This document shows positions 8,577 to 50,042 of a stretch of DNA of 64,000 nt, piece by piece. Position 1 is the first letter of the stretch. Each line of letters begins with the position of its first letter. Where the stretch lies: the NCBI GenBank assembly GCA_030748575.1, contig JASMLR010000002.1, positions 230,069 through 294,068 of the forward strand. The letters run 5' to 3'. The translations under genes were made by a program, and so were the position numbers. The notes below the pieces were generated by a model, which saw only the letters and a program-made list of their open reading frames with translations, made no database searches and was not told the origin of the DNA. Source of the DNA: Phycisphaerales bacterium (GTDB lineage: Bacteria; Planctomycetota; Phycisphaerae; Phycisphaerales; SM1A02).

Positions 8577-11500
8577 TCACGGCGAGCATCCGAAGTCGGC
8601 GATTGCTTCCAGCAGATCGTCGACGTCGAACTCGGTGCCGAAGCCATTGATGATGTGAAGGATGTCGTCCACATCGGTGTCTCCGTCACCATCGGCGTCG
8701 CCGGTGCAACCGCTGTCGCACTCGTCCGGCACGCCGTTGCCGTTGGCGTCTTCGCTGGTGCCGTTGGCGATATCACACGCGTCGGGCATGTGGTTGCCAT
8801 TGCAGTCCTGCTCACCCTGATAGGTGGCAGTTGCGCCGGCAGCCTGTTGCCAGACTTCGCCTGCGGCGTTGCGGCCCTGCAGGAGGGCGTCGAACATGAT
8901 CTCCGAGCTCAGGCTCATGGTCGTGAGCCGTGCGACCCAGACGCCATGCCGCTGGTCACAGTTCTGATCTGTGTATCCAGCCGCTGCGCCAGCGGGGTCG
9001 TCCGGGATGATGAACCAGACGCCGTTGTCAGCGCTGACGTCACCACCGGCTTCGAAGTTGTCCCAATCGATGCCAATGTCATTCAGACCGTTGGCCGGAT
9101 AGGGGTATCCGCTCGCATCGATCGAACCGATGCCGACGCGGCTGTCCCATTCCAGATCGGGCGCCAACTCATAGAACTCGGGGTTCACGCCGAGGCTCGT
9201 CGGCCCGCCATACCCGTCCTGATAGAAGGACGTGCTGCTGGTGAGCGTCTTCAGTTGAGCCTCGTTGCCCGCGACGGCGTCCAGACGCCAGCCCGCGGGA
9301 AGGTCGACAAAGATGTCGATGGTGTAGTGGGGCTGATCGAGGGCCGTGAGATCCACGCCGACGATGCTCCACGTCACGGTGACGTCGTCACCGCCGCCTG
9401 TGTCGCAGGGGTTCGACGCGCAGGTCGTGCCGTTGCCCTGGTAGGTCCCTTCGATCGCGAGGCACTCGACCTCGGTCAACGAACCGTAGCAGTTGGTGCC
9501 GACACAGCAGGCGCCCGTCTCAGGCGTGCCACAGGGGTCGGGATCGCACGGTGCGTCGTCGCCCTGATAGGTGCCGCCCTTGAGCGTGCACTCGGTCTCG
9601 GTCATGGTGTAGCAGACGCCCGCAATGCAGCAGCCGCCGGTCGCCGGAGCGGCGCACGGATCGGGAGAGCACGGGACGCCATCACCCTGATAGACGCCGT
9701 TGCCTGAGTAGCACGCCGCTTCAGTGACGTAACTGCAAGCGCCGTCAATGCAGCAAGCGCCCTGCACGGGCTGGTCGAGATCGGCGTCGATCGTCAGTGT
9801 GCCGGCACCAGTTGCGGCCTGCCAACCGCCGAGGCGGATGTAGTAGCTCTGGCCGCCTGTGACGGTCACATTGTCGATCTGTGAGTGGTAGTCCTGACAG
9901 CCTGTGCTGTCGCCGTAGTCGCCGTTGCAAGCGATCTGGACGAGGCTGCTGCAGGAAGAACCTTCGTAAATGACGAGCGACGTGTCATAGGAGGACGTAT
10001 CGCACGTGTGGAACGTGGCGGTTCCGTCTGCCGCCGGGGTCCAGACAAACCACTGATCGGGGCTTCCCAACCAGTCGAGATAGGTGCCCTCGCACTGGGT
10101 CTCATCTGGATCGCCGTAGCCACTGTCCGACATGGTGGACGTGTCAAACGGGTTGCCGCCTTCGTTGGCGACGACTGCATCGCTGCAGGTGTCACCTTCG
10201 CCGCCGCCGCCGCCGCCGCACGGGTTCCCGGTGCAGTCGGTGCCGTCGCCCTGGTAGGTGCCGCCAAAGCTGGAGCAGTCCGCCGGGGTCGCGATGGCGC
10301 AATCCGTGCCAATGCAGCAGGCGCCTTCAGCGCCGCCACCACCGCAGGGATCGCCACTGCAGTCGGTGTTGTCACCGAGGTAGGTGCCGCCCGATGAAGT
10401 GCAGTCGGCTTCGGTGGTGACGCTGCAAGCGGTCCCGATGCAACATCCGCCGAAGACGTCGTCACAGACGCAGTCGCCGCCGTCGCAATTGAACTCGGCG
10501 CAGTTGAGATAGATCGGCACGCCGTTCCATGTATAGGTTCCGTCGTCGCAATAGCCGTCGCCGACCCAGTAGTCCGGGCAGCAGTTGCCATTGCAGTCCT
10601 CAATCTCACCTGCGGGGCAGTCGCCGCCGCCGCCACCGCCGCCTGCGCAGACGTCGTCCCGGACGGTGACGAATCCCGCCTTGTCAATGCGGGTGCCGTA
10701 GTTCTCGCAACTGTAGGAGCAGTGCGTCACCACACCGATGATCTCACCGTTGTAGAGGATCGAGGAACCGGAGTTTCCGTAGGTGACGTCCAGGTTGTAG
10801 TAGAGCGTGTCGGAGTCGGTGCCGTCGAGCGGGCCGTCGCAGAATTGCTGAACCTGGCTGCGGACACACTGGTCGTCGACCCCGTAGCCATTGACGGTCA
10901 AATTGCCCGATCCGGGCACACTGCTGGCGATATTGACGAAGGCGCCGTACCGCTCGTAGGGTGTCTGGCCGTCGCTGTTGGTGCCGGCCTTGACCGCTCC
11001 GTAATCGTTGCCGACGCCGCCGTCGACACCGTCGAGGCCCGTGATCGGGAACTGGTCAGCGACCGGCGGGTTGTTCGTGGAGCAGTTGCTGTTCGAGTCG
11101 GGGACGTTGAACTGAAGGACGTCGCCCGAGGACAGGCAGTGTCCCGCCGTGACGAAGCACGACTCCGCGTTGTACATCGTGGCACTACAGCCGGTCGGGT
11201 ACAGGCGGGCGAAGCGGTTGTCACTGGACGGCACGCGGTCATCGGCGCCGCAGATGCCGCATCCATCTCCCCGGTCGGAGTCGACGGCCTCCCACGTGGC
11301 GGTGTCGATGGAGAGCTGGTTGGTCGTCAGACCACCGGCCACAACCTCGACACGCACCGAATTGCCATTGAAGTAGGCGGAGGTGTTGTTCCACATGGCA
11401 AGGGTGCTGGAGTCGAGTTCCTGCACCTCGCCGTCGCGGAGGCTGGTGACGCGAATGAACGAGTCGGTGCCCAGTTTCGTGTCGTCGCCAAAGTACAACC

Positions 11501-35702: not shown

Positions 35703-36923
35703 CTATCTGGCGGGCTCGGCCGCCTGCCGGGCCTCGGCCGTCTCCCGACGTGGCCGCATGGCTCGAAGGCGGACCGTTTCGGCCCCCGGATCGAGGAGGA
35801 CGAACGGCCGCATGGGATCGGTCGTCGACCGGGCATAGACCGGCGCATGGTCGACCCGCACGACGTTGCGAAGGTCCGAGCGGCTCTGCCAGTGCAGACC
35901 CTTGGGCATGGTGAGGAGAAAGTCGCCCCGGTTGTCGTAAATGGCGTCGATCGACCCTGGTGCGAGGGACACCAGTCGATCGTCGTTGATGCCTGTCGGC
36001 ATCCACACGTTGATGCACTGTTGGGTGGGGTGGTAGAACACGACCTGCTCAACCGCCGGACTGGCCAGGCCCTGCACGGCGGTTCGGTTGGCGGTTGCTG
36101 CCGCCGCATCCCAGCGGCTGGCGCCGACCATGACAAGCACCTGCCGCGGGTTCTCCTTGATGGTGTCGGGACGCTCGCCATTGATCGAGAGCAGCGACAG
36201 GACCCCTTGGCTGTCCAGTCGCCAGACTGAGAGCCGGGTGCTTCGCGGACTCCACATCGGGAAGAGCCAGTCTTCGTCATCCGCCGGGAGTTCGAATTCC
36301 CGTCCGTCAGCGAAGCGGAAGGCCAGCGAAAACGACACGCCGTCCCGCGGCCGCGTGGACCACGCCAGACGCCCGCGTGGCCCGAGGGTCGGCATGGTGT
36401 TGACCTGATCGTCACGGACGAGCCAGGTCAGCTCGCCGGACCGCCAGTCGATGCGGGCGATCCACCTGCTGCCGTCGCGTCGGAGTGATTCGACGAGGAA
36501 GCCCTCCTTGTCGGCAGCGTCGGTCAGCACGAGCGGGGACTCAATGGTCGTCTGCAACCGCATCCCGCCGAACCCGGGGAGAATCTCCCAGATCTCGATG
36601 CGGGCGCCCTCCGGAGGAACCGCCCCGGGCAGGCCCATGCGGGCCGCGTTGCTCGGGGGTGTGCCGGCGCTTGTTGCGATCCACCGCCCGTCGGGGCTCA
36701 GAAGTGGAAGAATGGTCGCATTCCACGGCAACGCGCCAAGCGACCATGCTTCTCCCTGAAACGCGCCTTGCGTGGCCTCATTGGCCCGCTGTTGCCGCTC
36801 CGCGATCTCATTGAGGGCGTCAGCCTGCGACTGCGTCAGTCGCGTTCGCTTGGGCCATGTTGACTGCTCGCACCCGGCTGAGGCGAGGACGGCCGCTATC
36901 AGAATGAGGCGTCCGATGGTCAC
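35703..36923 (-). CDS. Putative lipoprotein encoded at the distal end of the T2SS operon
   Basis: MTIGRLILIAAVLASAGCEQ lipobox; WD/beta-propeller-like blade repeats; 4-nt overlap with secretin CDS. Confidence 0.7.
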   Translation of the reverse strand: MTIGRLILIAAVLASAGCEQSTWPKRTRLTQSQADALNEIAERQQRANEATQGAFQGEAWSLGALPWNATILPLLSPDGRWIATSAGTPPSNAARMGLPGAVPPEGARIEIWEILPGFGGMRLQTTIESPLVLTDAADKEGFLVESLRRDGSRWIARIDWRSGELTWLVRDDQVNTMPTLGPRGRLAWSTRPRDGVSFSLAFRFADGREFELPADDEDWLFPMWSPRSTRLSVWRLDSQGVLSLLSINGERPDTIKENPRQVLVMVGASRWDAAAATANRTAVQGLASPAVEQVVFYHPTQQCINVWMPTGINDDRLVSLAPGSIDAIYDNRGDFLLTMPKGLHWQSRSDLRNVVRVDHAPVYARSTTDPMRPFVLLDPGAETVRLRAMRPRRETAEARQAAEPAR

Positions 36924-39900
36924 GGCGAGGTGTTCCTCCGTGGCGTCAGTTCGATGAGTTCAGGTTCGTATGCATCGATCTGATTCTGGGTGGGCTCTTC
37001 GCTCGGAAGCAGGACGCGGCCTCCGCTCCCGGAAGGGGTGTGTCGTCCCAGTCGCTCATGGACGTTCAGATCGATGATCTTCTCGCCCTCTGCGATCTGC
37101 TCTGCGAGCGGTCGGGCGACTGACTCAAGGCGTCCGAGGTCTTCGAGGTTGTAGTTGTCGTAGTTGTCAACGGGGCGGTGCACGACCGTGGGCGTGATGA
37201 AGGCGATCAACTCGGTCCGCTCCAGCTTCTCGTCATTGAACTCGAAGAGTTGGCCGATGATCGGAATGTCCGCCAGTAGCGGAATGCGGTCCCGCTTGAT
37301 CTGCTCCAGTTCGCGAAGCAGCCCGCCCAGCACGATGGTCTGGCCATCGAGCAGAATGGCGTGGGTCGTGACCTGCTTTCGGTCAAAGATCTCACTCTGG
37401 GTGTTGCCGACGTTGACGGCGCCCTTCGCCTGAGAGAGTTCCAGGCTCACGGCCAGATCGACCGCGCCTTCCTCGGTGATCCGCGGTCGAACGTTCAGGA
37501 ACACACCGACATTCTTGTACTCGATGGTCGTTGTGAGATTCTGCAGGCCGGTTGATGCCTCCACCGATCCCGTGGCGATCGGATACTCCTGGCCGGCGAA
37601 GAACACGGCTTCCTCGTTATCTGCAGTGAAGACTCGTGGCTCCTGGATCACGCGGGTGTTGGTGATCGAGTTGAGCGCTTCGATAATCACATTGATGTCA
37701 AAGGGGCCGAGCGTCAGCGTATTGGTCTGTGATCCATCGAGCATGTTGGTGATGAAGTCGATGGCTCCCATTGTGAGATCGACCGATCCGGCGACCAGGG
37801 CACCGGTGTCCGGTTGCCATCCGGTTCCGACCCGCATGCCGAGATTGAGCGCGTCGCCCAGATCGACCTCGACGATGGTGGCCGAGAGCATCACCTGACG
37901 CCTCGGTTGGTCAAATGCTTCGATCAGTTTGCGCATCGGCTCGCGGTACGCGGTGGGGGCCAGGATGGCCAGCGCGTTCTGTCTGACGATGGGAACAACC
38001 CGGACTTTCCCGATGAGTGACGATTCCGGAGCCTGTTCGTCAGAGTCGCCGGAGTTGCCCCAGGGGAACTGAAGATCCGATGACGTTCCTGAGGTGTCGG
38101 GTCCGGAGACGTTGAGGCCGTCGCCACTGGTTGAGAACCCTTCAGCCGTGAGCCCGGTCTCCGGGCGAGGAAGCGATACGCGTCCGCCTGCCTTGGCCAG
38201 CAGGATGTTGATCTCCTCCGTCAGAGCCACCGCGTCGGCGTACTTCAGCGGAATGATCTCGGGAAGACCGGCATCGGAAGGCTGGTCGATTTCTTCGATC
38301 ACGCTCTGAATGAACGAGAAACTCTCTTCGGTCTTGGCCAGCACGAGCAGGGCGTTACGGTCGGGGAAGGCCTCGAACTGGTACACGCCAGCAATGCCGG
38401 CGGTTGCATCGGTCCGCTGCGACTGGCCGGACCCGCCCTGGCGGCCCGACCGGCGGTTGCTGGAGCCGGAGGATCCGGAAGAGCCGCCGCCGAGTACCGC
38501 CGTCAGCAGGTCGGTCACCTTGATGGGATCGGTGTACTTCAGAATGAAGAGGCGAGAGGTCCCCTCCGGGCGAGGGCGATCCCACTGGGTCTCGATGAGC
38601 GTCGCGATCTCTTCGACCGTCTTCTGCTCGCCCTGCACCGTCACCGTGTTCTGCTGCTCATTCACGGTCAGCCGCAACTCGGCTTCCGGGATGCCTTCGG
38701 TGGACGTCGTCGTGGCGCCCGAGGAGCCGGAGCTTCGGTTCCGCTGATTGCGGTTGCTCTGGTTCTGGTTGGATCGGTTCGTGGACGATGTGCCTCCGGA
38801 CTGTTCAAACAGTTCCAGCACATTGGTTTCGATCTCGCGGGCGTCGGCGTAGCGGAGCCGGAATGTCTGAATGACCGGTTGGAGCCACTTCCGGTCGATG
38901 TCGTTGATGATCTGCTCCACCTGCTGGCACAGCCCGACGTCACCGAGCACCATGATCTGGTTGGAGAGGTCGTCCTCGCTGATGATGGCCCAGTCTTCAG
39001 GGAAGAACCCCTGGAGCCCGTCCTTGATCTGGGCGGCATCGGTGTTCCGAATCTGGAAGATCTTGAAAATGAGGCCCCCGCGGTCCGTCCGGTCCGCGAC
39101 CGATGTTTCCGCGGACACGACCTCGATCTCTCCGAGTTGCGTCACCATGTTGTCCATCTCGCCGATGAAGATGACGCGAGGTCGCTCGATGATGCCGATG
39201 TCCTGCATCCGCAGGTAGGTGAAGATGAAGTCCAACGCTTCGGTTCTGGACATCGGGTGATCGGCCACAATGTTGTACCCGTCGCGGGACCCGCCCGGGT
39301 TGTTTGGCAGATCGATCGGCATCACGATCTTGCCGGTCTCCAGCGCGATGAACTCGATGAGTTCCTCCAACTGCACATCCTTGAACGCGAGGACCACCGG
39401 TTCGTCTTTGACCGGACGTCGGTCGGGTCGAATGCCCTCGGTGCTCCACACGACCGGCTCCGGCTCGGCCGCTGCATCGGCCTCCTCGCCTGCGTCGTCG
39501 TCAGGCAGGGCCGCTTCCTCAGCCGGTGCCTCTTCGAGCGACGCCTCGGCAATTTCCTCTTCGAGCACCGCCTCATCGGCGTCGCCAGCCGCCTCTTCCG
39601 TGACTTCTTCCACGACCTCGATGTCGGCTTCCGGCTCGGCTTCCGGGGCCACGCCCGGCTCGTTGGCCTGAGCGGGTTCAGCCGGCGGCGAGACCGCGGG
39701 GTCATCCGTTGGGTTCGGTTCGGCCGGAGGTGGCTCCAGCGGCACCGGCGGTGGGGGCGGCGCGGGTTCGGGCCGGCCGCTCTGGGCACCTGCGGGGGTC
39801 GCCAGCATCACGGCCAGCAGTACGGCCGGCAGTATGGCCAGCAAGGGCGCAATCGCTGAAATCCTTCGAGACGTCATTTCCACGGGGCGTCCTCTCTGTG

Positions 39901-39958
39901 GTCGAGCCCGAGTAACGCGGAAGGGGCGGCGTGATTCGGTGAAATCCATGAGATTCAT
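36920..39958 (-). CDS. gspD: Type II secretion system secretin (GspD-like)
   Basis: Repeated N-domains, Ser/Gly linkers, secretin domain VGTGWQPDTGALVAGSV...RVIQEPRVFTADNEEAVFFAGQEYPIATG...LNVRPRITEEGAVDL...TTHAILLDGQTIVLGGLL; an alternative start at 39877 gives MTSRRISAIAPLLAILPAVLLAVML. Confidence 0.93.
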   Translation of the reverse strand: MNLMDFTESRRPFRVTRARPQRGRPVEMTSRRISAIAPLLAILPAVLLAVMLATPAGAQSGRPEPAPPPPPVPLEPPPAEPNPTDDPAVSPPAEPAQANEPGVAPEAEPEADIEVVEEVTEEAAGDADEAVLEEEIAEASLEEAPAEEAALPDDDAGEEADAAAEPEPVVWSTEGIRPDRRPVKDEPVVLAFKDVQLEELIEFIALETGKIVMPIDLPNNPGGSRDGYNIVADHPMSRTEALDFIFTYLRMQDIGIIERPRVIFIGEMDNMVTQLGEIEVVSAETSVADRTDRGGLIFKIFQIRNTDAAQIKDGLQGFFPEDWAIISEDDLSNQIMVLGDVGLCQQVEQIINDIDRKWLQPVIQTFRLRYADAREIETNVLELFEQSGGTSSTNRSNQNQSNRNQRNRSSGSSGATTTSTEGIPEAELRLTVNEQQNTVTVQGEQKTVEEIATLIETQWDRPRPEGTSRLFILKYTDPIKVTDLLTAVLGGGSSGSSGSSNRRSGRQGGSGQSQRTDATAGIAGVYQFEAFPDRNALLVLAKTEESFSFIQSVIEEIDQPSDAGLPEIIPLKYADAVALTEEINILLAKAGGRVSLPRPETGLTAEGFSTSGDGLNVSGPDTSGTSSDLQFPWGNSGDSDEQAPESSLIGKVRVVPIVRQNALAILAPTAYREPMRKLIEAFDQPRRQVMLSATIVEVDLGDALNLGMRVGTGWQPDTGALVAGSVDLTMGAIDFITNMLDGSQTNTLTLGPFDINVIIEALNSITNTRVIQEPRVFTADNEEAVFFAGQEYPIATGSVEASTGLQNLTTTIEYKNVGVFLNVRPRITEEGAVDLAVSLELSQAKGAVNVGNTQSEIFDRKQVTTHAILLDGQTIVLGGLLRELEQIKRDRIPLLADIPIIGQLFEFNDEKLERTELIAFITPTVVHRPVDNYDNYNLEDLGRLESVARPLAEQIAEGEKIIDLNVHERLGRHTPSGSGGRVLLPSEEPTQNQIDAYEPELIELTPRRNTSP

Positions 39959-40686
39959 TCCGGTGCCGTCCTTCGAGGTCGCGCCTCGTCAACTGTGCGT
40001 GTGGTCGATGCTGTGGGGAGTTCAATCACGTCCTTCAACGGGCCATCTTCCCAGGGGTCCTCGGCCTCGTCGAAAAGTGAGACCGTGAAGGGGCCGCCTT
40101 CCTTCCACATCAGTTCTGCGTGGTGGGGAGCCTGTACCGACACGACCTCGATCTCGTCCATCATTCGTCCGACCGGGATGACCATCAGGCCCTTGTCGGC
40201 TCTGAAAATCACGTCGGACCCGTAGATGGCGATGATGTCCGGCCCGCCGTACCGCTTCGGACGTGGATCCACCTTCGGGACATCGGCCGGCTTGGGCGCC
40301 TCGCGCGGCTTGCACGTCTCCGGTCCGCACGTGGTGTCCTTGCCCTGGAATCGTCCGCCGCGATCGAGGCAGGCGTCCCGCCGCATCACGGTGCACTCCT
40401 GGCCTACGCAGCAGGCTCCGGTGGGCTCGGGCGGCTTGGGCTTCGGGGGTGCCGGTGGCTCAAAGAAGAATGACCGGCCGTGGACCCGGTTGAGGTCCGT
40501 GCGATGCGCCTGGTCATGGGTGGCCAGCAGTTGGGAATACGTGGCATCGCTCGGCGCCGCGCCTCCCCCAAGCGCACCGAGCGAGGCAAGAAACGGGATG
40601 ACCAGCCAGAGCGCCAGGACGACAAGCCCCGCACCACAGAACAGGCTGACTCCCAGAGGGCCTCTGAGGGCCTCGCGGTCGATCAT
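39955..40686 (-). CDS. T2SS/T4P inner-membrane GspC/PilP-like protein with a six-Cys module
   Basis: One N-terminal TM; GACCVGQECTVMRRDACLDRGGRFQGKDTTCGPETC; position between secretin and PilO-like genes. Confidence 0.65.
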   Translation of the reverse strand: MIDREALRGPLGVSLFCGAGLVVLALWLVIPFLASLGALGGGAAPSDATYSQLLATHDQAHRTDLNRVHGRSFFFEPPAPPKPKPPEPTGACCVGQECTVMRRDACLDRGGRFQGKDTTCGPETCKPREAPKPADVPKVDPRPKRYGGPDIIAIYGSDVIFRADKGLMVIPVGRMMDEIEVVSVQAPHHAELMWKEGGPFTVSLFDEAEDPWEDGPLKDVIELPTASTTRTVDEARPRRTAPE

Positions 40687-41264
40687 CGCCGCCTTCCTCC
40701 ACGCACCCATGCTTCGATCGTCAGCTCAACGGCCAGTTTGCCACCGGCTTTGCCTCGCTGCACACGGGCGTTGCTGATGGCCTCAAGGGCCGGGCTGTCC
40801 TCCAACGCCCCGATGATCTCGATGGCCTTCTCATGGTCGGCCTCGAAACTGACGGTGGCCTTGATGCGGTCGATGCCCGGCAGCGTCGCCCCGCCGACCT
40901 TGACCGCGCTCGACGCCTCATTGAACTTGTATCCGCGTACCTCGAACTCACGCATGATGGCGTTGACCGCTTCAAGCATGTCCTGGGACTCCGTCGCTCG
41001 CTGCGACGGGGAGGACAGGGGACCGTACGCAACGACGTTGGATCGCTGCATGGCGGCCTGCTCACGGGCGCGATCGACGCGTTCCGTCTGCGCCTCGATC
41101 TCATCGGCAGCGCCGCCCCACGAAGACGAGATCGGGTCGATCAGGCTCGACCAGAGGAGAAACACCACCAATACCAGTCCAAGCCCGAAGATCAGCCGGG
41201 TGCCCCGGCTCATGCGGTTGTATTCATCTCGCAGGCGAGGCGCCAGTCCCGTCGCGTCGGTCAT
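40683..41264 (-). CDS. GspM/PilO-like protein
   Basis: Single TM (LIFGLGLVLVVFLLWSSLIDPI) then coiled-coil/ferredoxin-like; operon context. Confidence 0.65.
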   Translation of the reverse strand: MTDATGLAPRLRDEYNRMSRGTRLIFGLGLVLVVFLLWSSLIDPISSSWGGAADEIEAQTERVDRAREQAAMQRSNVVAYGPLSSPSQRATESQDMLEAVNAIMREFEVRGYKFNEASSAVKVGGATLPGIDRIKATVSFEADHEKAIEIIGALEDSPALEAISNARVQRGKAGGKLAVELTIEAWVRGGRRR

Positions 41265-43246
41265 GACCCGCCCTCCCGCCCCAACTTGCGGAGGTGCTCA
41301 AAGAGCCGCCTCCAGTAGTCGTCGAGCGTCGGATCATTGAAGCGGGCCTTGACTTTGGTCACTTCATTGACCTTGGCGAGGGTCTCCGCGCGGTTGAGCG
41401 TGGCGATCTGCGCGTCGGTCAGAATCTCCGGCATGGCGCCGAGGTCCTCGGCTGAGAGGTCGCCGCTTCGCGCCGACGTGCCAGCCACGCTCCGCGACGC
41501 CGTGTCCGACGCCGACATGTCGCCACCGCCGCCGGGACGGGAGCCACCTGGTCGCGTGTCGGTTCGGCGGGGGATGACCGATGGGGGCGTCGTCGATGGG
41601 GGTGTATGGGGCTTCGTTGCCGCGGGGCTGCCTGCGCCGGAGGGGCTCGCTGGGCCTTGAGCCAGGGTGCCGCCGCCAGGAGACGCGGGTGTGGACGGGC
41701 CGGCCGGCGCCGGTCGGGCGGATGCTGGTGCGGGGCCGCCAGTGCTCGCGTCCGCTTCACCTGGCAGCCAGGTGGCGGCCACGCTTGGTCTGGGATCGGG
41801 CCCACCCTCGGCGGTCGTCGGGAGCGAGTATCGCCGCTGCTGGTGCGTCCAGGCCGCGAAGTCCTGCTCGGGTGGGTAGGTCGGGCGGACCGCCGGAGCG
41901 CCGATGTCTGCGTTCAGCGAGAAAGACCGCTCGCCCAGATTGGACTGGCCACCCCACTCCACGGTGACGTCTTTGAAGACGCGGGAGGACTGCATGTTCG
42001 CCTTCATGTTGCCGATGAGGTCGGCGGCCGGCGTGCCCTGGTAGGTCGTCGCGTCCCCCGCGATCCGAATCGGCTCACCGGCTCCCATCTTGATGCTCTC
42101 GATCTTGACGCCCAGAGGCGTCGCGGCGGCAATGTCCGCCAGCAGTTTGGTGACCGGCAGGGAGCCTGTCCCCAACTGGGCGTACAGCCGGTTCCGCTGC
42201 TCCACGGCCGAGGCGGATTGCACGGCTTGGGTCAGTCCGGAGTGGGCCATGCTGAGCAGGGCGTAGCGGACACCGTTGAGCACCAACGGGCCGAGCAGCA
42301 GCACAATGACGAAGGCTGCCGCCAACCGAAGGGCCATGCGTGGGTTCGACAGTCGATCGATCCACCGCTCGGTGAAGGTGGGCTCGTGCTTCGGGAGTCT
42401 GGGCCGCAGGACGGTCAGCGAGGCAAAGTCGTCTGAGGTGGCCAGGCCGCACGCCAGGGCCATCAGGAAGGGCGTCGGATCCTCAGGAAGCGAGCCTGTG
42501 ACGCGCCGCAGAATCAGCGTGGCGGCCTCCGGCGAGAGCGCATGGTCCGGGCTTGCCGTTGCGGGGGCCGACAGGCGGGTCGCTTCGTCGGCCGACCACC
42601 CTGCTTGCATGGCGGACTCCAGCACAAACCGCGTGGCGGCTTCAGGGGAATCAAATGCGCCCGCGTGCGTGGAGCGGAGTGCCAACTTACCTCGGCCCGA
42701 AAGCACCAGCGCCGTACTGCCGTCGGCCGCGTCATGCCAGAGGAGCGGGACGTCCGGGTGCCCGCTGGCCGCCGCGGAGAGCAGGCCCGCGACGTCCGGA
42801 ACGGCCAGCGTCGACGTCTCATCGAGTGGTGGAATCGGCACCTCTCGAGCGGAGGGCCAGGCCACCGCGACGCCCACGCGTTCGTCTTCCGGGCCCGTGG
42901 CCGGAAGGAGGGCGACTGCCTGACGGTGCAGGGGTGCCGAGTCGCCCAATCGTTCGGCCGCAATCTCGTGCAGGCGATGATCGACGTCCGCTTCATCGCC
43001 TCGGCCCAGCCCGATCGAACGGCAGATCACGCTCCGAGCGGGGATGACGATTCGGGTGGCGGTGTCGGCCGGGTTGCACCAGGCCGGGACCTGATCAGTC
43101 TCCAGCCGGGCGGCATCCAGAACCTCGATGCCGGTGGCTCCAGGGCGGTATCGCACGGCGGACCAGGCCCCGTCCACCCAATGCAGCATCGCCATCGAAG
43201 TGGCGGTGTCCTGGGCCGATTGGCTGGGGGCTCCGAGCCTGCTCAT
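41261..43246 (-). CDS. GspL-like (PilM-PilN fusion-like) protein
   Basis: N-terminal actin-like/PilM-like region, one TM (MALRLAAAFVIVLLLGPLVLNGVRYALL), PilN-like periplasmic part; operon context. Confidence 0.6.
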   Translation of the reverse strand: MSRLGAPSQSAQDTATSMAMLHWVDGAWSAVRYRPGATGIEVLDAARLETDQVPAWCNPADTATRIVIPARSVICRSIGLGRGDEADVDHRLHEIAAERLGDSAPLHRQAVALLPATGPEDERVGVAVAWPSAREVPIPPLDETSTLAVPDVAGLLSAAASGHPDVPLLWHDAADGSTALVLSGRGKLALRSTHAGAFDSPEAATRFVLESAMQAGWSADEATRLSAPATASPDHALSPEAATLILRRVTGSLPEDPTPFLMALACGLATSDDFASLTVLRPRLPKHEPTFTERWIDRLSNPRMALRLAAAFVIVLLLGPLVLNGVRYALLSMAHSGLTQAVQSASAVEQRNRLYAQLGTGSLPVTKLLADIAAATPLGVKIESIKMGAGEPIRIAGDATTYQGTPAADLIGNMKANMQSSRVFKDVTVEWGGQSNLGERSFSLNADIGAPAVRPTYPPEQDFAAWTHQQRRYSLPTTAEGGPDPRPSVAATWLPGEADASTGGPAPASARPAPAGPSTPASPGGGTLAQGPASPSGAGSPAATKPHTPPSTTPPSVIPRRTDTRPGGSRPGGGGDMSASDTASRSVAGTSARSGDLSAEDLGAMPEILTDAQIATLNRAETLAKVNEVTKVKARFNDPTLDDYWRRLFEHLRKLGREGGS

Positions 43247-43325
43247 TGGTGTGGGAGGATATCCGAAGAGACCTGCCGCGATCGCCTCCGAGGACCGTCC
43301 ACGGCGGGTCTGCGTTGCCCTGAGC

Positions 43326-44663
43326 TCAGTTCTCTCGATACTCGAGGATTCGCACGGGCAGGGTTGAACGATCGACCACCACGTGGATTTCCGCGACCTC
43401 GTCAGTTGCGTCACTTCTTCCTCGGGAGGAGATGGTGAACACGTTGCTGTCGGTCCCGAACATCGGCAGCAACTGCTCCAGCGTGGCCTGGTCGGCCCCT
43501 GAGAGATCCCAGAAGTCCACGAGGCTGGGCAGTCCGTTGGCCCGCTGGGTGCGGAGGGCGAGCAGGGCGTCCACGAGCCGCTCGTTCTCCTTGAACATGG
43601 CGTAGAGCGTCTCTGGGGGCACGGTGTTGATGTTGATGCGGCCGAAGTCCCTTCGGTGCAGGGGTGTGAGGCTGGTCTCGGAGAGGATCACCGCCACTTC
43701 GTCCGGGGTCCATGTCAGATCGATCTGGACTTCGCCCTCGTCAGACTCCGCTTCGCTCGCGGCCTCTGGGGCCGCGCCCAAGTTCGCCACGAGGGAACTG
43801 GCCTCAATCTCACCGGCCACGGCGTCATTGATCAGTTTGTCGGCCTTCTGCGGGCTGAGTTCCAGACCGAGCAATTCGAATCGCTCCATGAGTTCTGGTC
43901 CGTCGGTGGCCAGCAGCCAGATTCTGGGCAGCCCGCTCGTCGTCGCGCCGTCGGCGACCGATTGCACCGTGAGCATGCGAGCCCATCCACCATCGAGCAC
44001 CCCCGACTCGTTGTCCCACGGAAGCGTCTCATCCCCGTCGTCCTCGGAAGGATCGAGCAGGTTGTTCATGTTCCAGTCTTCTCCGCGAATGTCCTCCGGC
44101 TCGACACCCGCGACCAGTTCCAGTTCAGCCACGCTTTGAAGCGGCGCATTCCTCGGCTCATATCGAGCGTTGAGCGACAGGTAGTAGTCACGTTCCACGC
44201 CGAACTCACTGGGCTCGTCGTCTTCGTCAATCCAGTCTTCAATGGCGGCGAAAACGCCCCAGGAGAGCGGGCCGAACATGACGTCCATGTACCCGCGATG
44301 CGGGCCGTTCACATTCAACCTGGCGTGTTCGTCCAGTGGCCCCGCAAAGGGCACCGGGCTGTCGCCTGAGGCGTGCTGGATGATCCAGTCGCCACCTTCG
44401 ACCGTGCCGGCATGGACGTTTTCAAGATCACGAATGAGCGCATACGCGTCGTCCGGTATCGGATAACGCGTATGAGTCGCGAGTTGCGCGATGGTCGCCT
44501 CGACGCCCGCTCGGGCCGCCCATCTGGCCCGAATGCGTTCCATAGAGTCCCGGCCGAGCATGGCCATTCGGTTGGTTCCCACCTGCAGCGCCGCGACGAG
44601 CAACGCCGTCAGGGTGAGTCCCCACAGGACCACGACCATGGCTGTTCCGCGTCGGCAGGTCAT
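43326..44663 (-). CDS. gspK: T2SS minor pseudopilin GspK-like
   Basis: MTCRRGTAMVVVLWGLTLTALLVAAL; long periplasmic domain ending NVFTISSRGRSDATDEVAEIHVVVDR. Confidence 0.88.
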   Translation of the reverse strand: MTCRRGTAMVVVLWGLTLTALLVAALQVGTNRMAMLGRDSMERIRARWAARAGVEATIAQLATHTRYPIPDDAYALIRDLENVHAGTVEGGDWIIQHASGDSPVPFAGPLDEHARLNVNGPHRGYMDVMFGPLSWGVFAAIEDWIDEDDEPSEFGVERDYYLSLNARYEPRNAPLQSVAELELVAGVEPEDIRGEDWNMNNLLDPSEDDGDETLPWDNESGVLDGGWARMLTVQSVADGATTSGLPRIWLLATDGPELMERFELLGLELSPQKADKLINDAVAGEIEASSLVANLGAAPEAASEAESDEGEVQIDLTWTPDEVAVILSETSLTPLHRRDFGRININTVPPETLYAMFKENERLVDALLALRTQRANGLPSLVDFWDLSGADQATLEQLLPMFGTDSNVFTISSRGRSDATDEVAEIHVVVDRSTLPVRILEYREN

Positions 44664-45604
44664 CGGGGACTTCCTCCCGAGCCGCCCTGATTGAGTGTTG
44701 CATTGCCGTCCGGCCCGATGATCACGGTGCCCGCCGGCGTCTCGATGGTCTGGCCGGGGACGCCCCCGCCCGAGGCTGCTGACGTGCCATCGGTGTCGAT
44801 GAGCCCTCCGCCGGGGGTGGCCGTCGGGGTGCGTGGAATGGGTGGGGGGGTACTGGTCGCCACTGCGTTGACGACATCGTCGTAGAGCTCCGGCTCCAGC
44901 CCGAAGCGGTCCATGATGTCCTCGGCAAGCCGCGCGTCGGCCACCTCGAATGGCATGCGGCTGCGGTCGACGGGGACCACCGTGCGGAGCGTTGCGATGG
45001 GGTGGCCGGCCGTGGGCAGTCCCGGCTCGGCGCCGGTGGCTGTGACGGTCACGCGGAAGGCCCACGGGAGGCCGTCTTCGTCACTGTCCCACTCCTCATG
45101 CCAACTGATGCCGTTCCACGCTTCGATGTCCATCTCGGTGACCCCTTCGACGACCGGGGTGACGATGCCACCGCCGCGGGGATACCCGTCAGGCATGGGG
45201 TCGCGTCGGGCCAGCAGCATCGGGCCGAGATCATCTTCTTCCACGCGGTAGTGGGTCTCGAACTCAAGCCCGTCGCCGTTGTACGTGATGTCGCGGGTCG
45301 CCTGAAGCCGGTTGTTGAAGAGGAGAATCTCGTCTCGCGCGACCACCTCGCCGTCACGGGTCGAGTCTGCATTGAGCAGCAGCACGCGGGTGTAGAACAG
45401 GTCCTCTCGTCGGAGTACGGATGCGAGGTCGCGTCGAACCATGCGAAGTGCGGAGTCTGCCCGCAGGTGGGCGTCGATTCTGTCTCGTGTGGCATTCTTC
45501 GATTTGACGACTTGCTGCATCGCTACGCCCATTGCAACCAATACAGCCGCCAGCAAGACGCCTGCCAGCAGAAACTCCACCATGGTGAATCCACGGCGCA
45601 TCAC
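44660..45604 (-). CDS. gspJ: T2SS minor pseudopilin GspJ-like
   Basis: MMRRGFTMVEFLLAGVLLAAVLVAMGVAMQQ; ATGA overlaps on both sides. Confidence 0.8.
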   Translation of the reverse strand: MMRRGFTMVEFLLAGVLLAAVLVAMGVAMQQVVKSKNATRDRIDAHLRADSALRMVRRDLASVLRREDLFYTRVLLLNADSTRDGEVVARDEILLFNNRLQATRDITYNGDGLEFETHYRVEEDDLGPMLLARRDPMPDGYPRGGGIVTPVVEGVTEMDIEAWNGISWHEEWDSDEDGLPWAFRVTVTATGAEPGLPTAGHPIATLRTVVPVDRSRMPFEVADARLAEDIMDRFGLEPELYDDVVNAVATSTPPPIPRTPTATPGGGLIDTDGTSAASGGGVPGQTIETPAGTVIIGPDGNATLNQGGSGGSPR

Positions 45605-46095
45605 GGCTCCGACCCCAGACCGGATTCATCGTCGGCTCCCCATTGCCGCTCCTCGCGGTCCAACGGCTCCTCGGGCTTCCAATCGAATGGGTCGTCAACG
45701 ATGTCGCCTTGCCGCGGCGCGACCTTGGTGGCGATCCGCACGGACATCGGCCCGGAACGATCCTGCCAGGTCACGGTTGCTGCGACGTCCCACGGCCCCC
45801 AGTCGCTGGGCTGGTTCATGTCCAGAACCCATTCGTATCGATCGAATGGCGGGTCAAAGTAGCCGGATGTCGGTTCGCTCTGCGAGTACAGCGAAGGCCC
45901 CACCGCAACGACCATGGCAAGCGCCTCGTCTGCCAGCCAGGAGGCGGTGAGTCGTCGTTCACCCGTCTGCTCGGCCCGCAACGCCTGGCTTGCCAGTGAC
46001 AACGTGACGCTGAGCCCGACCCCGAGCATGAGCGCGGCGAGGATGACGTCCAGAAGGGCGACGCCGCGGGCGTTGAAGGTTCGAGGGGGCGACAT
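45601..46095 (-). CDS. gspI: T2SS minor pseudopilin GspI-like
   Basis: ARGVALLDVILAALMLGVGLSVTLSLASQAL; operon position. Confidence 0.75.
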   Translation of the reverse strand: MSPPRTFNARGVALLDVILAALMLGVGLSVTLSLASQALRAEQTGERRLTASWLADEALAMVVAVGPSLYSQSEPTSGYFDPPFDRYEWVLDMNQPSDWGPWDVAATVTWQDRSGPMSVRIATKVAPRQGDIVDDPFDWKPEEPLDREERQWGADDESGLGSEP

Positions 46096-46679
46096 CACCA
46101 GTCTTCCTGCCACTGCCCCGACCGGTCGAGGTCCGTGGGTGTACGCGAGATGGCTCCGACTGGTTCACCTCGCATGGAATCCACCCGAATCGGTCGCCAG
46201 GCATTGCCTGACAGAATGAGCGTCACCGTCCTTGGCATCCTCGGGTCACGGCTCTGCAGCGTCACCTCAAGCCTCGGCCGGGGCTGCCCCGGGAGGTTCG
46301 TCACGGGTTTGAAAGTTGGGTCGACATGGTCGCCGTCGGCGAGAAACTCCATGTCCGACACCGAAATGGTGTCCGGGAGTCGCACCTCCGGAACGGAGAT
46401 GTCCTCGGCCCAACCGTCGTTGAACTCGTCTCGGTCGCCTCGTCTGATCAGAAGTTGGAGGCTGTTGCGGTCGGGGTTGGCTGAGATGCCGACGGGCTCA
46501 TTGGCGAACTCGCTTCGCATGGCGTACATGAGCAGGAGATCGCTGACTTTGTCGGAGGCCAGGTCAAACTCGCGGTTCGCGGCACCGGTCAATCGACTCA
46601 CCAGTACGGTTGCCAGCGCTGCCACCAGCACGGTGACCACAATGACCTCGATCAACGTGAATCCGCGGCGACCGGTCAT
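46095..46679 (-). CDS. gspH: T2SS minor pseudopilin GspH-like
   Basis: MTGRRGFTLIEVIVVTVLVAALATVLVSRL; operon position. Confidence 0.78.
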   Translation of the reverse strand: MTGRRGFTLIEVIVVTVLVAALATVLVSRLTGAANREFDLASDKVSDLLLMYAMRSEFANEPVGISANPDRNSLQLLIRRGDRDEFNDGWAEDISVPEVRLPDTISVSDMEFLADGDHVDPTFKPVTNLPGQPRPRLEVTLQSRDPRMPRTVTLILSGNAWRPIRVDSMRGEPVGAISRTPTDLDRSGQWQEDW

Positions 46680-46683
46680 GGCC

Positions 46684-47121
46684 CTACTGTGTGACGTCCG
46701 CGTTGGCCTGCTCGCCACCTGGCGCGCCGTCGCCGCCGAGGGAGAGAATGTCAAAGTCGTAATTCTCAACGCCCGGCACAACGACGATGAACTCATTGCC
46801 CCAGGGGTCGATCACATCGGTCTTCTTGGGCAGATACGGGCCGCCCGGGCCGCCGCCTTCGTCGGGCCGCATCGTGAGCACGTTCAGGTCGAAGTTGTCC
46901 TCGGGCGAGGCTGCGACGTCGATCATGTACAGCGTGTAGGCCTGGCTGATCTTGGCTGCCTGGCTTCGCGCGATTTCAGACTGGCCGCGGCCGAACACAC
47001 CGGTGAGCCGCGTGGCGACGACGGTCATGAGCAGCGCCAGGACGGTGACGATGACGATGACCTCGACGAGCGTGAAGCCACGGCGGATCGTCCGAGTTCG
47101 TCGCGATGGGTGACGGTGCAT
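46684..47121 (-). CDS. gspG: T2SS major pseudopilin GspG
   Basis: RRGFTLVEVIVIVTVLALLMTVVATRL; C-terminal DPWGNEFIVVVPGVENYDFDILSLGGDGAPGGE. Confidence 0.93.
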   Translation of the reverse strand: MHRHPSRRTRTIRRGFTLVEVIVIVTVLALLMTVVATRLTGVFGRGQSEIARSQAAKISQAYTLYMIDVAASPEDNFDLNVLTMRPDEGGGPGGPYLPKKTDVIDPWGNEFIVVVPGVENYDFDILSLGGDGAPGGEQANADVTQ

Positions 47122-47141
47122 GGTGGGATCTCCCGGCCGGT

Positions 47142-48383
47142 TCAACCGGCCAGATTCTGAAGTTCGAGGAGTGGAAGAAGAATGGCGGCAAGGACGAACG
47201 CGCCGAGCGCCGCCATGATGATGATGAGAAGCGGGGGAAAGGCCTTGGTAAAGAGCTTGATGGACACGTTGACCTGCCGATCAAAGGCGGTCGCTGCGTG
47301 TGAGAGCATGGTTTCAAGCCGGCCGGACCGCTCTCCCAGGTTTACGACCTGCACGAGCAGCGGCGGGAAGAGTCCGGATTTCTCCAGCGGGTCGGCGAGG
47401 GGCTTGCCTTCGGTGACCTGAGACTGAACGGTGTCAATGGCTTCCATCATGGCGGTATTGACGAGCGTGTCCCGCGTGATGTTCAGGCACTCCAGAAGGG
47501 GCAGGCCGGCAGCGGCGAGCGTGCCCATGGTCCGCGTGAAGCGAGCCACGGCGATGTCTCGGAGCAGTCTGCCGAGCACTGGAACCCGAAGTTTCCACGC
47601 GTCCCATCGCAGCCGGTTCTCCGGCGCCGCAATCCAGAACCGCCACCCCATGACCGACAACACGGCGATGGCGATACACACCAGCCACCACGAGGCAAGA
47701 AAGTCGGAGATGCTCAGGAGCATGCGAGTGGGCAGCGGCAGCGTCTTGACGCCGGCTGCCAGCAGCGGCTCCATCAGTCGCGGGATCAGCACGGTGACCA
47801 GAATGATCGCGCTTGAGAGAATCAGGGTGGCGACGATCAGCGGGTAGAACACGGCGCCGACCACCTCACGCCGCAACTCGATGCCACGCTCCAGAAGGTC
47901 GGCCAGTTGATGCAGCACGACGCTGCTCTCGCCCGAGGCGTCTGCGGCGCGAAGCATGCCCAGAATGAGATCGTCGAAGGGGGGGCCGTAGGAGGAGCCA
48001 GCCTTGTGGAGCGATTCGCCCGCCTCGACCCGCTCGATGAGATGGTCCAGGACCGCCTCTGGCCCCTTGCCCGCGGCTTGTCGGCGAATGGTCCTGAGGG
48101 CGGTCACCAGGGGAAGGCCGGCTTCCAGTGCAGTTGCAAGCTCACGCACCAGTGCGGCGATTTCGGTCTTCCGCATGGAGGGCCGTCCGGTACGCCGTCG
48201 CCGCGCCGCTGCGACCTTCGGCCGGCCGGGCTGACGATCCGACGCTGCGGTCGCGACGATGGCCGTGGCCGTCTCACCACGCTGCAGCAGCATGCGGTTG
48301 GCGTCCGCTCTGCTCGCTGCTTCGAGGACGCCTCGTCGCTGAGCCCCGGTCGCCGAGATGGCTTCGTACTCGAAGACTGGCAT
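47142..48383 (-). CDS. gspF: T2SS inner-membrane protein GspF
   Basis: MPVFEYEAISATGAQRRGVLEA; LATALEAGLPLVTALRTI; GLPLLECLNITRDTLVN. Confidence 0.95.
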   Translation of the reverse strand: MPVFEYEAISATGAQRRGVLEAASRADANRMLLQRGETATAIVATAASDRQPGRPKVAAARRRRTGRPSMRKTEIAALVRELATALEAGLPLVTALRTIRRQAAGKGPEAVLDHLIERVEAGESLHKAGSSYGPPFDDLILGMLRAADASGESSVVLHQLADLLERGIELRREVVGAVFYPLIVATLILSSAIILVTVLIPRLMEPLLAAGVKTLPLPTRMLLSISDFLASWWLVCIAIAVLSVMGWRFWIAAPENRLRWDAWKLRVPVLGRLLRDIAVARFTRTMGTLAAAGLPLLECLNITRDTLVNTAMMEAIDTVQSQVTEGKPLADPLEKSGLFPPLLVQVVNLGERSGRLETMLSHAATAFDRQVNVSIKLFTKAFPPLLIIIMAALGAFVLAAILLPLLELQNLAG

Positions 48384-48389
48384 GGGGGC

Positions 48390-50042
48390 CTACTCGTAGA
48401 GTTCCTCGGCGTCCTGCGTGGCGCGAAGCACTTCCGCGATCGTCGTGACGCCTTCTCGCGCGCGGTCCATGCCGTCTTCCCGCATGGTGTGGAAGTCCTT
48501 CGGCAGTGCCGAGCTGAGGGCCGCGGCCGCCGCCCCCGTGGCTATGGCTTGTCGCAACTCGCCATGGATCGAGAGCAGTTCAAAGAAGCCGACGCGGCCG
48601 CGATAGCCGCTGCCATTGCACTTGTCACAGCCGGCGCCCTTCCAGGCGTGCCCTTCAAATGCATCACGCTCTTCCTTGCGGATCCTGGCCGCGACGTCTT
48701 CCGAGAGCGGAACCCGCGTGCGGCAGTGCTCGCAGATCCGGCGTCCCAGCCGCTGGGCGAGCAGGCCCTCAAGGACCGAAGCGACGAGGTATGGCTCGGC
48801 CCCCATGTCCACGAGGCGTCCAATGGAACTCACGGCGTCGTTGGTATGCAGGGTGGAGAGAATGAGGTGGCCGGTCAGGGCGGAACGAATGGCAATGTCC
48901 GCGGTCTCGCCGTCGCGAATCTCGCCCACCAGCACAATGTCCGGATCCTGCCGAAGGATCGATCGGAGTCCCGACGCGAAGGTCAGGCCTCGCTTGGCAT
49001 TGACCGGGATCTGATTGATGCCGTTCAGCTCGTACTCGACCGGATCTTCGATCGTGATGATCTTTCGGCTCGGGTCGAAGATGCGGGTCAGGGACGCATA
49101 GAGCGTTGTCGTCTTGCCCGAGCCGGTGGGGCCCGTGTTCAACAGAATCCCGTGAGGCTTGGAGAGCAGGCGGTCCATCGACGCCTGCAGTTCCGGCCGC
49201 AGGCCAAGCGTGTCGAAGTCGAGACGCAACTGGCTCTTGTCGAGGATTCGCATGACGACCGATTCGCCGTAGAGCGTCGGCACAGTCGACACACGAATGT
49301 CGATCTTGCGGCCTTCGTATCGGAGCGAGATCTTGCCATCCTGCGGCACGTATCGCTCGGCGATATTCATGCCGGCCATGATCTTGATACGCCCGATCAA
49401 CGCCGGCTGAAGATGCTTCGGCGGAGGTGGCTGTGTATGCAGCACGCCATCGATGCGGTATCGCACCGTCAGTTCCTGCTCGAACGGCTCGACATGAACA
49501 TCGCTTGTGCGCGACTGGATCGCCTCGATCAGGATGAGGTTGACGAGGTTGACGAGGGTCGGCTCCTCCGCCATGCGGTGGAGATCGTCGGTCTCAAAGG
49601 CGTCCAGATTGTGCTCAAGGTCGTTGTCGCCGTCCTCGGTCTGCCCTCCGAGGAGATCCGCCATCTTGGATGCGGTCGTGCCGTAGTGCTTTCGGAGGAG
49701 TTCGGCGAAAATGCCGGGCTCCATGCCCTCCCGCTCGACTTCACGTTCGCACCGGACCGAGATCTCATCCGCCGCCTCGGTATCGAGGGGGTCGAACATG
49801 GCAAGCACCAACTTGTCCGCCCGCACGGCGATTGGAACAACCCGCAGCCGCACCGCGGTCTCGGGTTCCACAAGCGTGATCGCATCGGCCTCCGCCTCGA
49901 CCGGCTTCTCGTGCCAGGGAAGGTTCAGAATCCTGGCACGCTCGCGAATGGCCGCAGCTTGTTCGTCGAGCGTTCGTGCCGCCGTCAGCGTTTCCTCGCC
50001 TGGCTCAACGGCGGCATCGAATTGTGTGGGGTCGCGATCCAT
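48390..50042 (-). CDS. gspE: T2SS ATPase GspE
   Basis: GPTGSGKTTTLYASL Walker A; ITIEDPVEYELNGINQIPVN; GEIRDGETADIAIRSALTGHLILSTLHTNDA; CEHC...CDKC. Confidence 0.97.
   Translation of the reverse strand: MDRDPTQFDAAVEPGEETLTAARTLDEQAAAIRERARILNLPWHEKPVEAEADAITLVEPETAVRLRVVPIAVRADKLVLAMFDPLDTEAADEISVRCEREVEREGMEPGIFAELLRKHYGTTASKMADLLGGQTEDGDNDLEHNLDAFETDDLHRMAEEPTLVNLVNLILIEAIQSRTSDVHVEPFEQELTVRYRIDGVLHTQPPPPKHLQPALIGRIKIMAGMNIAERYVPQDGKISLRYEGRKIDIRVSTVPTLYGESVVMRILDKSQLRLDFDTLGLRPELQASMDRLLSKPHGILLNTGPTGSGKTTTLYASLTRIFDPSRKIITIEDPVEYELNGINQIPVNAKRGLTFASGLRSILRQDPDIVLVGEIRDGETADIAIRSALTGHLILSTLHTNDAVSSIGRLVDMGAEPYLVASVLEGLLAQRLGRRICEHCRTRVPLSEDVAARIRKEERDAFEGHAWKGAGCDKCNGSGYRGRVGFFELLSIHGELRQAIATGAAAAALSSALPKDFHTMREDGMDRAREGVTTIAEVLRATQDAEELYE

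Follow-up and report, generated by a model that had tools for sequence, protein, structure and literature searches.

A six-cysteine module of secreted proteins inserted into the linker of a GspC-type protein in two sister genera of Phycisphaerales

A C-terminal PDZ or coiled-coil domain is usual, but not universal, in the GspC proteins of type II secretion systems (T2SS). The domain order of GspC is a transmembrane (TM) helix, a Pro-rich linker and the homology region (HR) (PMC3169554). Via the HR, GspC normally joins the inner-membrane platform to the secretin, and a further domain, which varies between GspC proteins (PDZ, coiled coil or none), can determine which substrates are exported (PMC12369372; PMC7949064). 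Secretion of VesB is PDZ-dependent and proceeds through the Ig-fold domain of VesB (PMC12369372), and PelI contacts both GspC and GspD (PMC7949064). PilP of type IV pili has a similar architecture, with a TM or lipid anchor, a linker and a beta domain and no PDZ. Here we describe a protein of 251 amino acids, P0002, which follows the same plan and carries a six-Cys module in its linker. It is encoded in a stretch of 64,000 nucleotides from a Phycisphaerales bacterium, which was analysed as a whole and is called the window below. The window also encodes a secreted protease, P0003, with five copies of this module.

The GspC-type host protein and its operon

The genes for GspD, the GspM-like protein and GspE/F/G/H/I/J/K form a single block on the same strand (Table 1), and the operon looks complete, the GspL call reflecting gene position and a weak PilN match only. 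The P0002 ORF shares 4 bp with gspD on one side and 28 bp with the gspM-like gene on the other. This agrees with an earlier reading made from the sequence alone (the sequence-only reading), which had placed a GspC/PilP-like host protein between gspD and a 'pilO-like' gene. A PilP structure (2lc4) was the top Foldseek match of the P0002 model. Unlike PilP, P0002 is encoded together with the pseudopilins GspG/H/I/J/K; these gsp genes identify the operon as that of a T2SS, in which P0002 occupies the place of GspC.

In an AlphaFold2 (AF2) model of P0002, built from 12 sequences, the TM helix is followed by a periplasmic helix, then by the module and by a beta domain of six strands (at 158-211). 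The tail (residues 213-251) was neither helix nor strand and had a low pLDDT. P0002 shares with known GspC proteins (ETEC GspC HR, 3OSS; PulC HR, 6HCG) the TM helix, the Pro-rich linker (approximately 46% Pro among the GspC orthologues), an all-beta HR and a gene that adjoins gspD in a T2SS operon. Foldseek aligned the HR model with GspC 3oss_C (TMt 0.66, rmsd 2.5, prob 0.95, with a weak E of 0.52) and with PulC 6hcg_e (TMt 0.56). P0002 differs from known GspC proteins in that it matches no Pfam or NCBIfam model, has no C-terminal PDZ or coiled-coil domain and contains the six-Cys module in its linker. LspC of L. pneumophila also has no such C-terminal domain (PMC12369372). Among 23 orthologues of P0002, the GspC_delta model NF041515 matched two, weakly (best E 0.0013). 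Despite the weak Foldseek E (~0.5), the agreement of fold, gene order and domain order supports the assignment of P0002 as a GspC-type T2SS subunit, and its HR domain is expected to contact the secretin GspD in the source organism.

Table 1. Features of the window (positions numbered from its first letter).
Feature	Position	Strand	Basis
Module copy 1, secreted protease P0003	10344..10451	-	
Module copy 2, secreted protease P0003	10218..10325	-	
Module copy 3, secreted protease P0003	9654..9761	-	
Module copy 4, secreted protease P0003	9531..9638	-	
Module copy 5, secreted protease P0003, x8 not x7 between Cys 3 and Cys 4	9405..9515	-	
gspD secretin	36920..39958	-	TIGR02517 E 2.6e-104
GspC-type T2SS inner-membrane protein P0002, 251 aa	39955..40710	-	ORF, synteny, HR fold, orthologues
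GspC homology-region (HR) domain, residues 153-212, all-beta, pLDDT ~90	40075..40254	-	AF2, Foldseek
Pro-rich linker C-terminal of module, residues 134-152	40255..40311	-	
Six-Cys module in P0002, residues 98-133	40312..40419	-	profile E 1.7e-10 to 6e-11, AF2
Pro-rich linker N-terminal of module, residues 86-97	40420..40455	-	
P0002 periplasmic helix, residues 55-78, then invariant GRSFFFEP motif	40477..40548	-	AF2 model, alignments
P0002 transmembrane helix, residues 18-47	40570..40659	-	AF2 helix, hydrophobicity
GspM-like protein gene ('pilO-like' in the sequence-only reading)	40683..41264	-	NF040576 XpsM E 5.7e-8, PF04612 E 5.4e-5
Other T2SS operon genes: GspL/PilN-like, GspK, GspJ, GspI, GspH, GspG, GspF, GspE	41261..50042	-	

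The six-Cys module and its hosts

The module copy of P0002, GACCVGQECTVMRRDACLDRGGRFQGKDTTCGPETC, is read from the minus strand, and the plus-strand reading of these positions differs. Over its full length it shows the six Cys in module spacing, the G/A-C-C start and the core of G-G, an aromatic residue and G. It had been described as lying just after the TM helix; actually, it is located approximately 50 residues beyond, past the periplasmic helix and within the Pro-rich linker. A profile HMM made without any GspC copies matched P0002 with an E of 6e-11, and besides the protease this was the sole match among the 1057 ORFs of the window. When the protease copies were left out as well, P0002 was still matched over the full length of the module (E 1.7e-10; 1057 window ORFs). 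The 36 residues were also shuffled 20,000 times, which gave a top score of 13.7 bits compared with 38.3 bits for the real sequence, and the Cys spacing in none of the shuffles. The six-Cys module in the GspC-like protein, as recognized by the sequence-only reading, is real by these tests. Although Cys-rich patterns are capable of converging, the profile and shuffle tests rule out a chance or convergent pattern without relation to the protease repeats. The Gly and aromatic core is common to the copies besides the Cys, and we give this reading practically no credence. No module was found in the remaining T2SS genes of the window.

The copies of P0003 lie approximately 30 kb from P0002, as had been stated. 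The spacing CC-x4-C-x7-C-x13-C-x4-C, claimed for all five repeats, is exact in four, the fifth being the one with x8 for x7; likewise, the core GG-x-[YF]-QG is exact in two of the five and inexact in the other three. P0003 (8577-11858, minus strand) looks chymotrypsin-like (AGHC, GNSGSS) and gave no significant match in Pfam or NCBIfam. Serine- and reprolysin-type proteases with modules have in common a domain of approximately 180 residues of the GYGGPTS...ALAPDLEWDSRVTIG type, which is situated between the modules and a dockerin-like tail; it was seen in P0003, in L010:1621-4005 and in two ORFs of L013.

In the source genome, approximately 43 module matches were distributed over 20 ORFs, 19 of which are not GspC. 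Judged by a simple hydrophobicity rule, the non-GspC hosts examined with a visible N-terminus all start with a signal-like hydrophobic segment, which bears out the earlier statement that GspC and secreted proteins have this module in common. The hosts include trypsin-like and reprolysin proteases, beta-helix proteins, a glucose/sorbosone dehydrogenase and others, and a C-terminal dockerin-like calcium-loop repeat is frequent among them. Secreted enzymes and beta-helix proteins make up almost all hosts and GspC is the exception. The module-bearing proteins may be exported by the T2SS.

The module was present in 147 of 181 genomes of the family (43 of 45 genera) and, in a wider sample of the phylum, in 11 of 294 genomes, two of these 11 belonging to the source family. 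Some genera of the family possess a single host protein with four copies, and others 40 to 131 copies. Amplification was most extreme in genome G178 of genus g61 (131 matches) and genome G100 of genus g50 (95 matches), while several related genera have three. In genera with few or no other module proteins, a secreted four-module protein with a dockerin-like tail is kept (L136, L137, L138, L139 and L140; in the source genome L015:1831-3327). This protein may be the ancestral module host in the family. A genome from another family of the phylum contains an ORF of 692 amino acids in which the module is repeated in tandem at least 14 times (G206:C226:73711-75597).

A scan of 79 module copies against Pfam-A and NCBIfam gave scattered chance matches only, so that no curated domain of these collections accounts for the module, and nothing relevant was found in the literature on the module or on planctomycete GspC. 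In the secreted proteins of planctomycetes, the module is thus a previously undescribed unit, and one that has been highly amplified. In AF2, an isolated 40-mer of the module adopted a strand-strand-helix-strand arrangement (b-b-a-b) with a pLDDT of 93, and the module is thus predicted to fold independently. Its disulfides are probably oxidised, since the Cys are conserved and the module is located outside the cytoplasm.

A module profile (A2) run against PDB sequences matched only iRhom1 and iRhom2, with a best E of 0.006 and all six Cys aligned (9xy4_A 201-236; 8snl_B 571-606). A broader profile (A7), made to firm up this match, gave a weaker E of 0.14. In Foldseek searches with the isolated module, iRhom1 and iRhom2 ranked first (rmsd 1.0-1.1 Å over 27 residues; prob 0.84 and 0.72; E 0.85-1.3). 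A segment of the iRhom homology domain (IRHD) of these animal proteins thus resembles the module in its six Cys and in the predicted fold, but homology between the two would be tentative. The IRHD was described in 2024 as a structure without precedent (PMC11248996), and part of it may have its first bacterial look-alike in this module. A second, partial module match occurs in iRhom approximately 100 residues upstream.

Origin and conservation of the module in GspC

GspC is close to universal in the family, with orthologues in 158 of 181 genomes and 44 of 45 genera, and presence of the module was scored on 74 distinct orthologues. It was found in ten, which are the seven recovered from the source genus and the three from a second genus, without exception; in two further source-genus genomes, both fragmented assemblies, no GspC orthologue was detected. 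The remaining 64 orthologues, which represent 41 further genera as well as two further families of the order, have no module, which rules it out as a fixed part of the T2SS GspC. Those members that have names are MAGs of uncultured marine Phycisphaerales, and several of them are labelled ALOHA.

For phylogenetic analysis, a GspC tree was computed without the linker and the module. The ten module-bearing sequences formed one clade with an SH-aLRT of 100, next to 59 rows without the module. The module was gained once in the common ancestor of the two sister genera and never lost in this sample. Because the gain happened once, it has no independent replication, and the ten sequences count as kin. 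Without the module, the linker of these proteins has a length of approximately 32 aa compared with 34 aa (27-46) in 67 module-less orthologue sequences, the linkers of which contain no Cys. The similar length shows that the module was inserted in place into an existing linker.

All ten sequences of the clade retain the module. Identity within the source genus (g1) was 0.70 for the module, 0.71 for the HR, 0.55 for the second linker and 0.42 for the tail; the corresponding pN/pS values were 0.26 (module), 0.27 (HR) and 0.52 (tail), where pN/pS is rough because synonymous sites are nearly saturated (pS ~0.73). For both identity and pN/pS, the module boundaries used were one residue too early. 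The module is thus conserved in its clade to about the same degree as the HR domain. Between the two module-bearing genera, GspC identity is approximately 40% and that of the non-Cys module positions 37%. The need to fold would by itself suffice to conserve a disulfide-rich domain.

The GspC copies of the module have a distinct charge. Their net charge is -1.3 compared with -5.1 for the secreted copies; at least three K/R were present in 10 of 10 GspC copies and in 0 of 212 secreted copies, and a K/R three residues N-terminal of Cys 4 in 10 of 10 and 3 of 212, respectively, although the ten GspC copies are related and a Fisher value for this comparison is not independent evidence. The basic residue near Cys 4 replaces Glu, the commonest residue of the secreted copies. 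As a control for host composition, GspC was compared outside the module and was also less acidic (-0.035 versus -0.107 per residue). Part of the charge shift thus goes with the composition of the host, and after this control the charge difference was no longer taken as proof of complementarity.

Possible roles of the GspC module

With moderate confidence, we regard the GspC module as a lineage-specific accessory interaction domain made by domain shuffling. A module that the family employs abundantly in its secreted proteins would have been copied once into GspC, at the Pro-rich linker that joins the periplasmic helix to the HR domain, in the ancestor common to the two sister genera, and would have been retained thereafter. 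There it would form a compact periplasmic accessory domain directly N-terminal of the HR, the predicted GspD-binding domain, and would add a protein-interaction surface which may position GspC, partners in the T2SS or envelope, or some exoproteins. Its role might be likened to that of the variable PDZ or coiled-coil domain of other GspC proteins, some of which select substrates (PMC12369372). Like the PDZ and coiled-coil domains of EpsC, OutC and XcpP, the module is a lineage-variable extra periplasmic domain on GspC. Those domains are C-terminal to the HR and have other folds, whereas the disulfide module is N-terminal to it and also occurs in secreted proteins.

A passive role is rather unlikely. 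The copy might have landed in a tolerant linker and been kept since a misfolded disulfide domain is harmful, or since it makes the linker stiffer or longer. The linkers vary and lack structure, a chance insertion is plausible in clade genomes with approximately 40-95 module copies, and the partial dependence of charge on host composition fits as well. On the other hand, none of the ten sequences has lost the module at the observed divergence of GspC between the two genera, and a GspC-specific Arg is invariant even though the non-Cys module positions have diverged so far.

It is unlikely that the GspC module serves in substrate docking, i.e. that it binds the modules of exoproteins by homotypic contacts or charge complementarity and hands these proteins to the secretin. 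GspC and the exoproteins carry the same module, the acidic secreted copies face far less acidic GspC copies with a basic residue near Cys 4, and accessory domains of GspC set the secretion of particular substrates elsewhere (PMC12369372; PMC7949064). Against this, the nearest genera in the GspC tree (g61, g5, g8 and g19) have 28-131 secreted copies and none in GspC. Since these genera are rich in modules, a module in GspC is no general requirement, and the module is ruled out as a tag that GspC would have to read for export. One may still picture the GspC copy as a built-in, charge-modified substrate receptor, whose module-module contacts would recruit exoproteins to the secretin, but this version is quite doubtful. 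Concerning the recognition or sorting module proposed by the sequence-only reading, the shared module and its GspC host stand, while the role so far does not, as 64 of 74 orthologous T2SS loci are without the module. A lineage-specific substrate-docking role is possible.

The choice of substrates by the T2SS is still termed elusive (PMC7949064). GspC, which elsewhere helps to choose substrates, has in a small clade acquired the same module that abounds in the secretome, and the module-less relatives flanking this clade provide a natural comparison for recognition by a shared domain.
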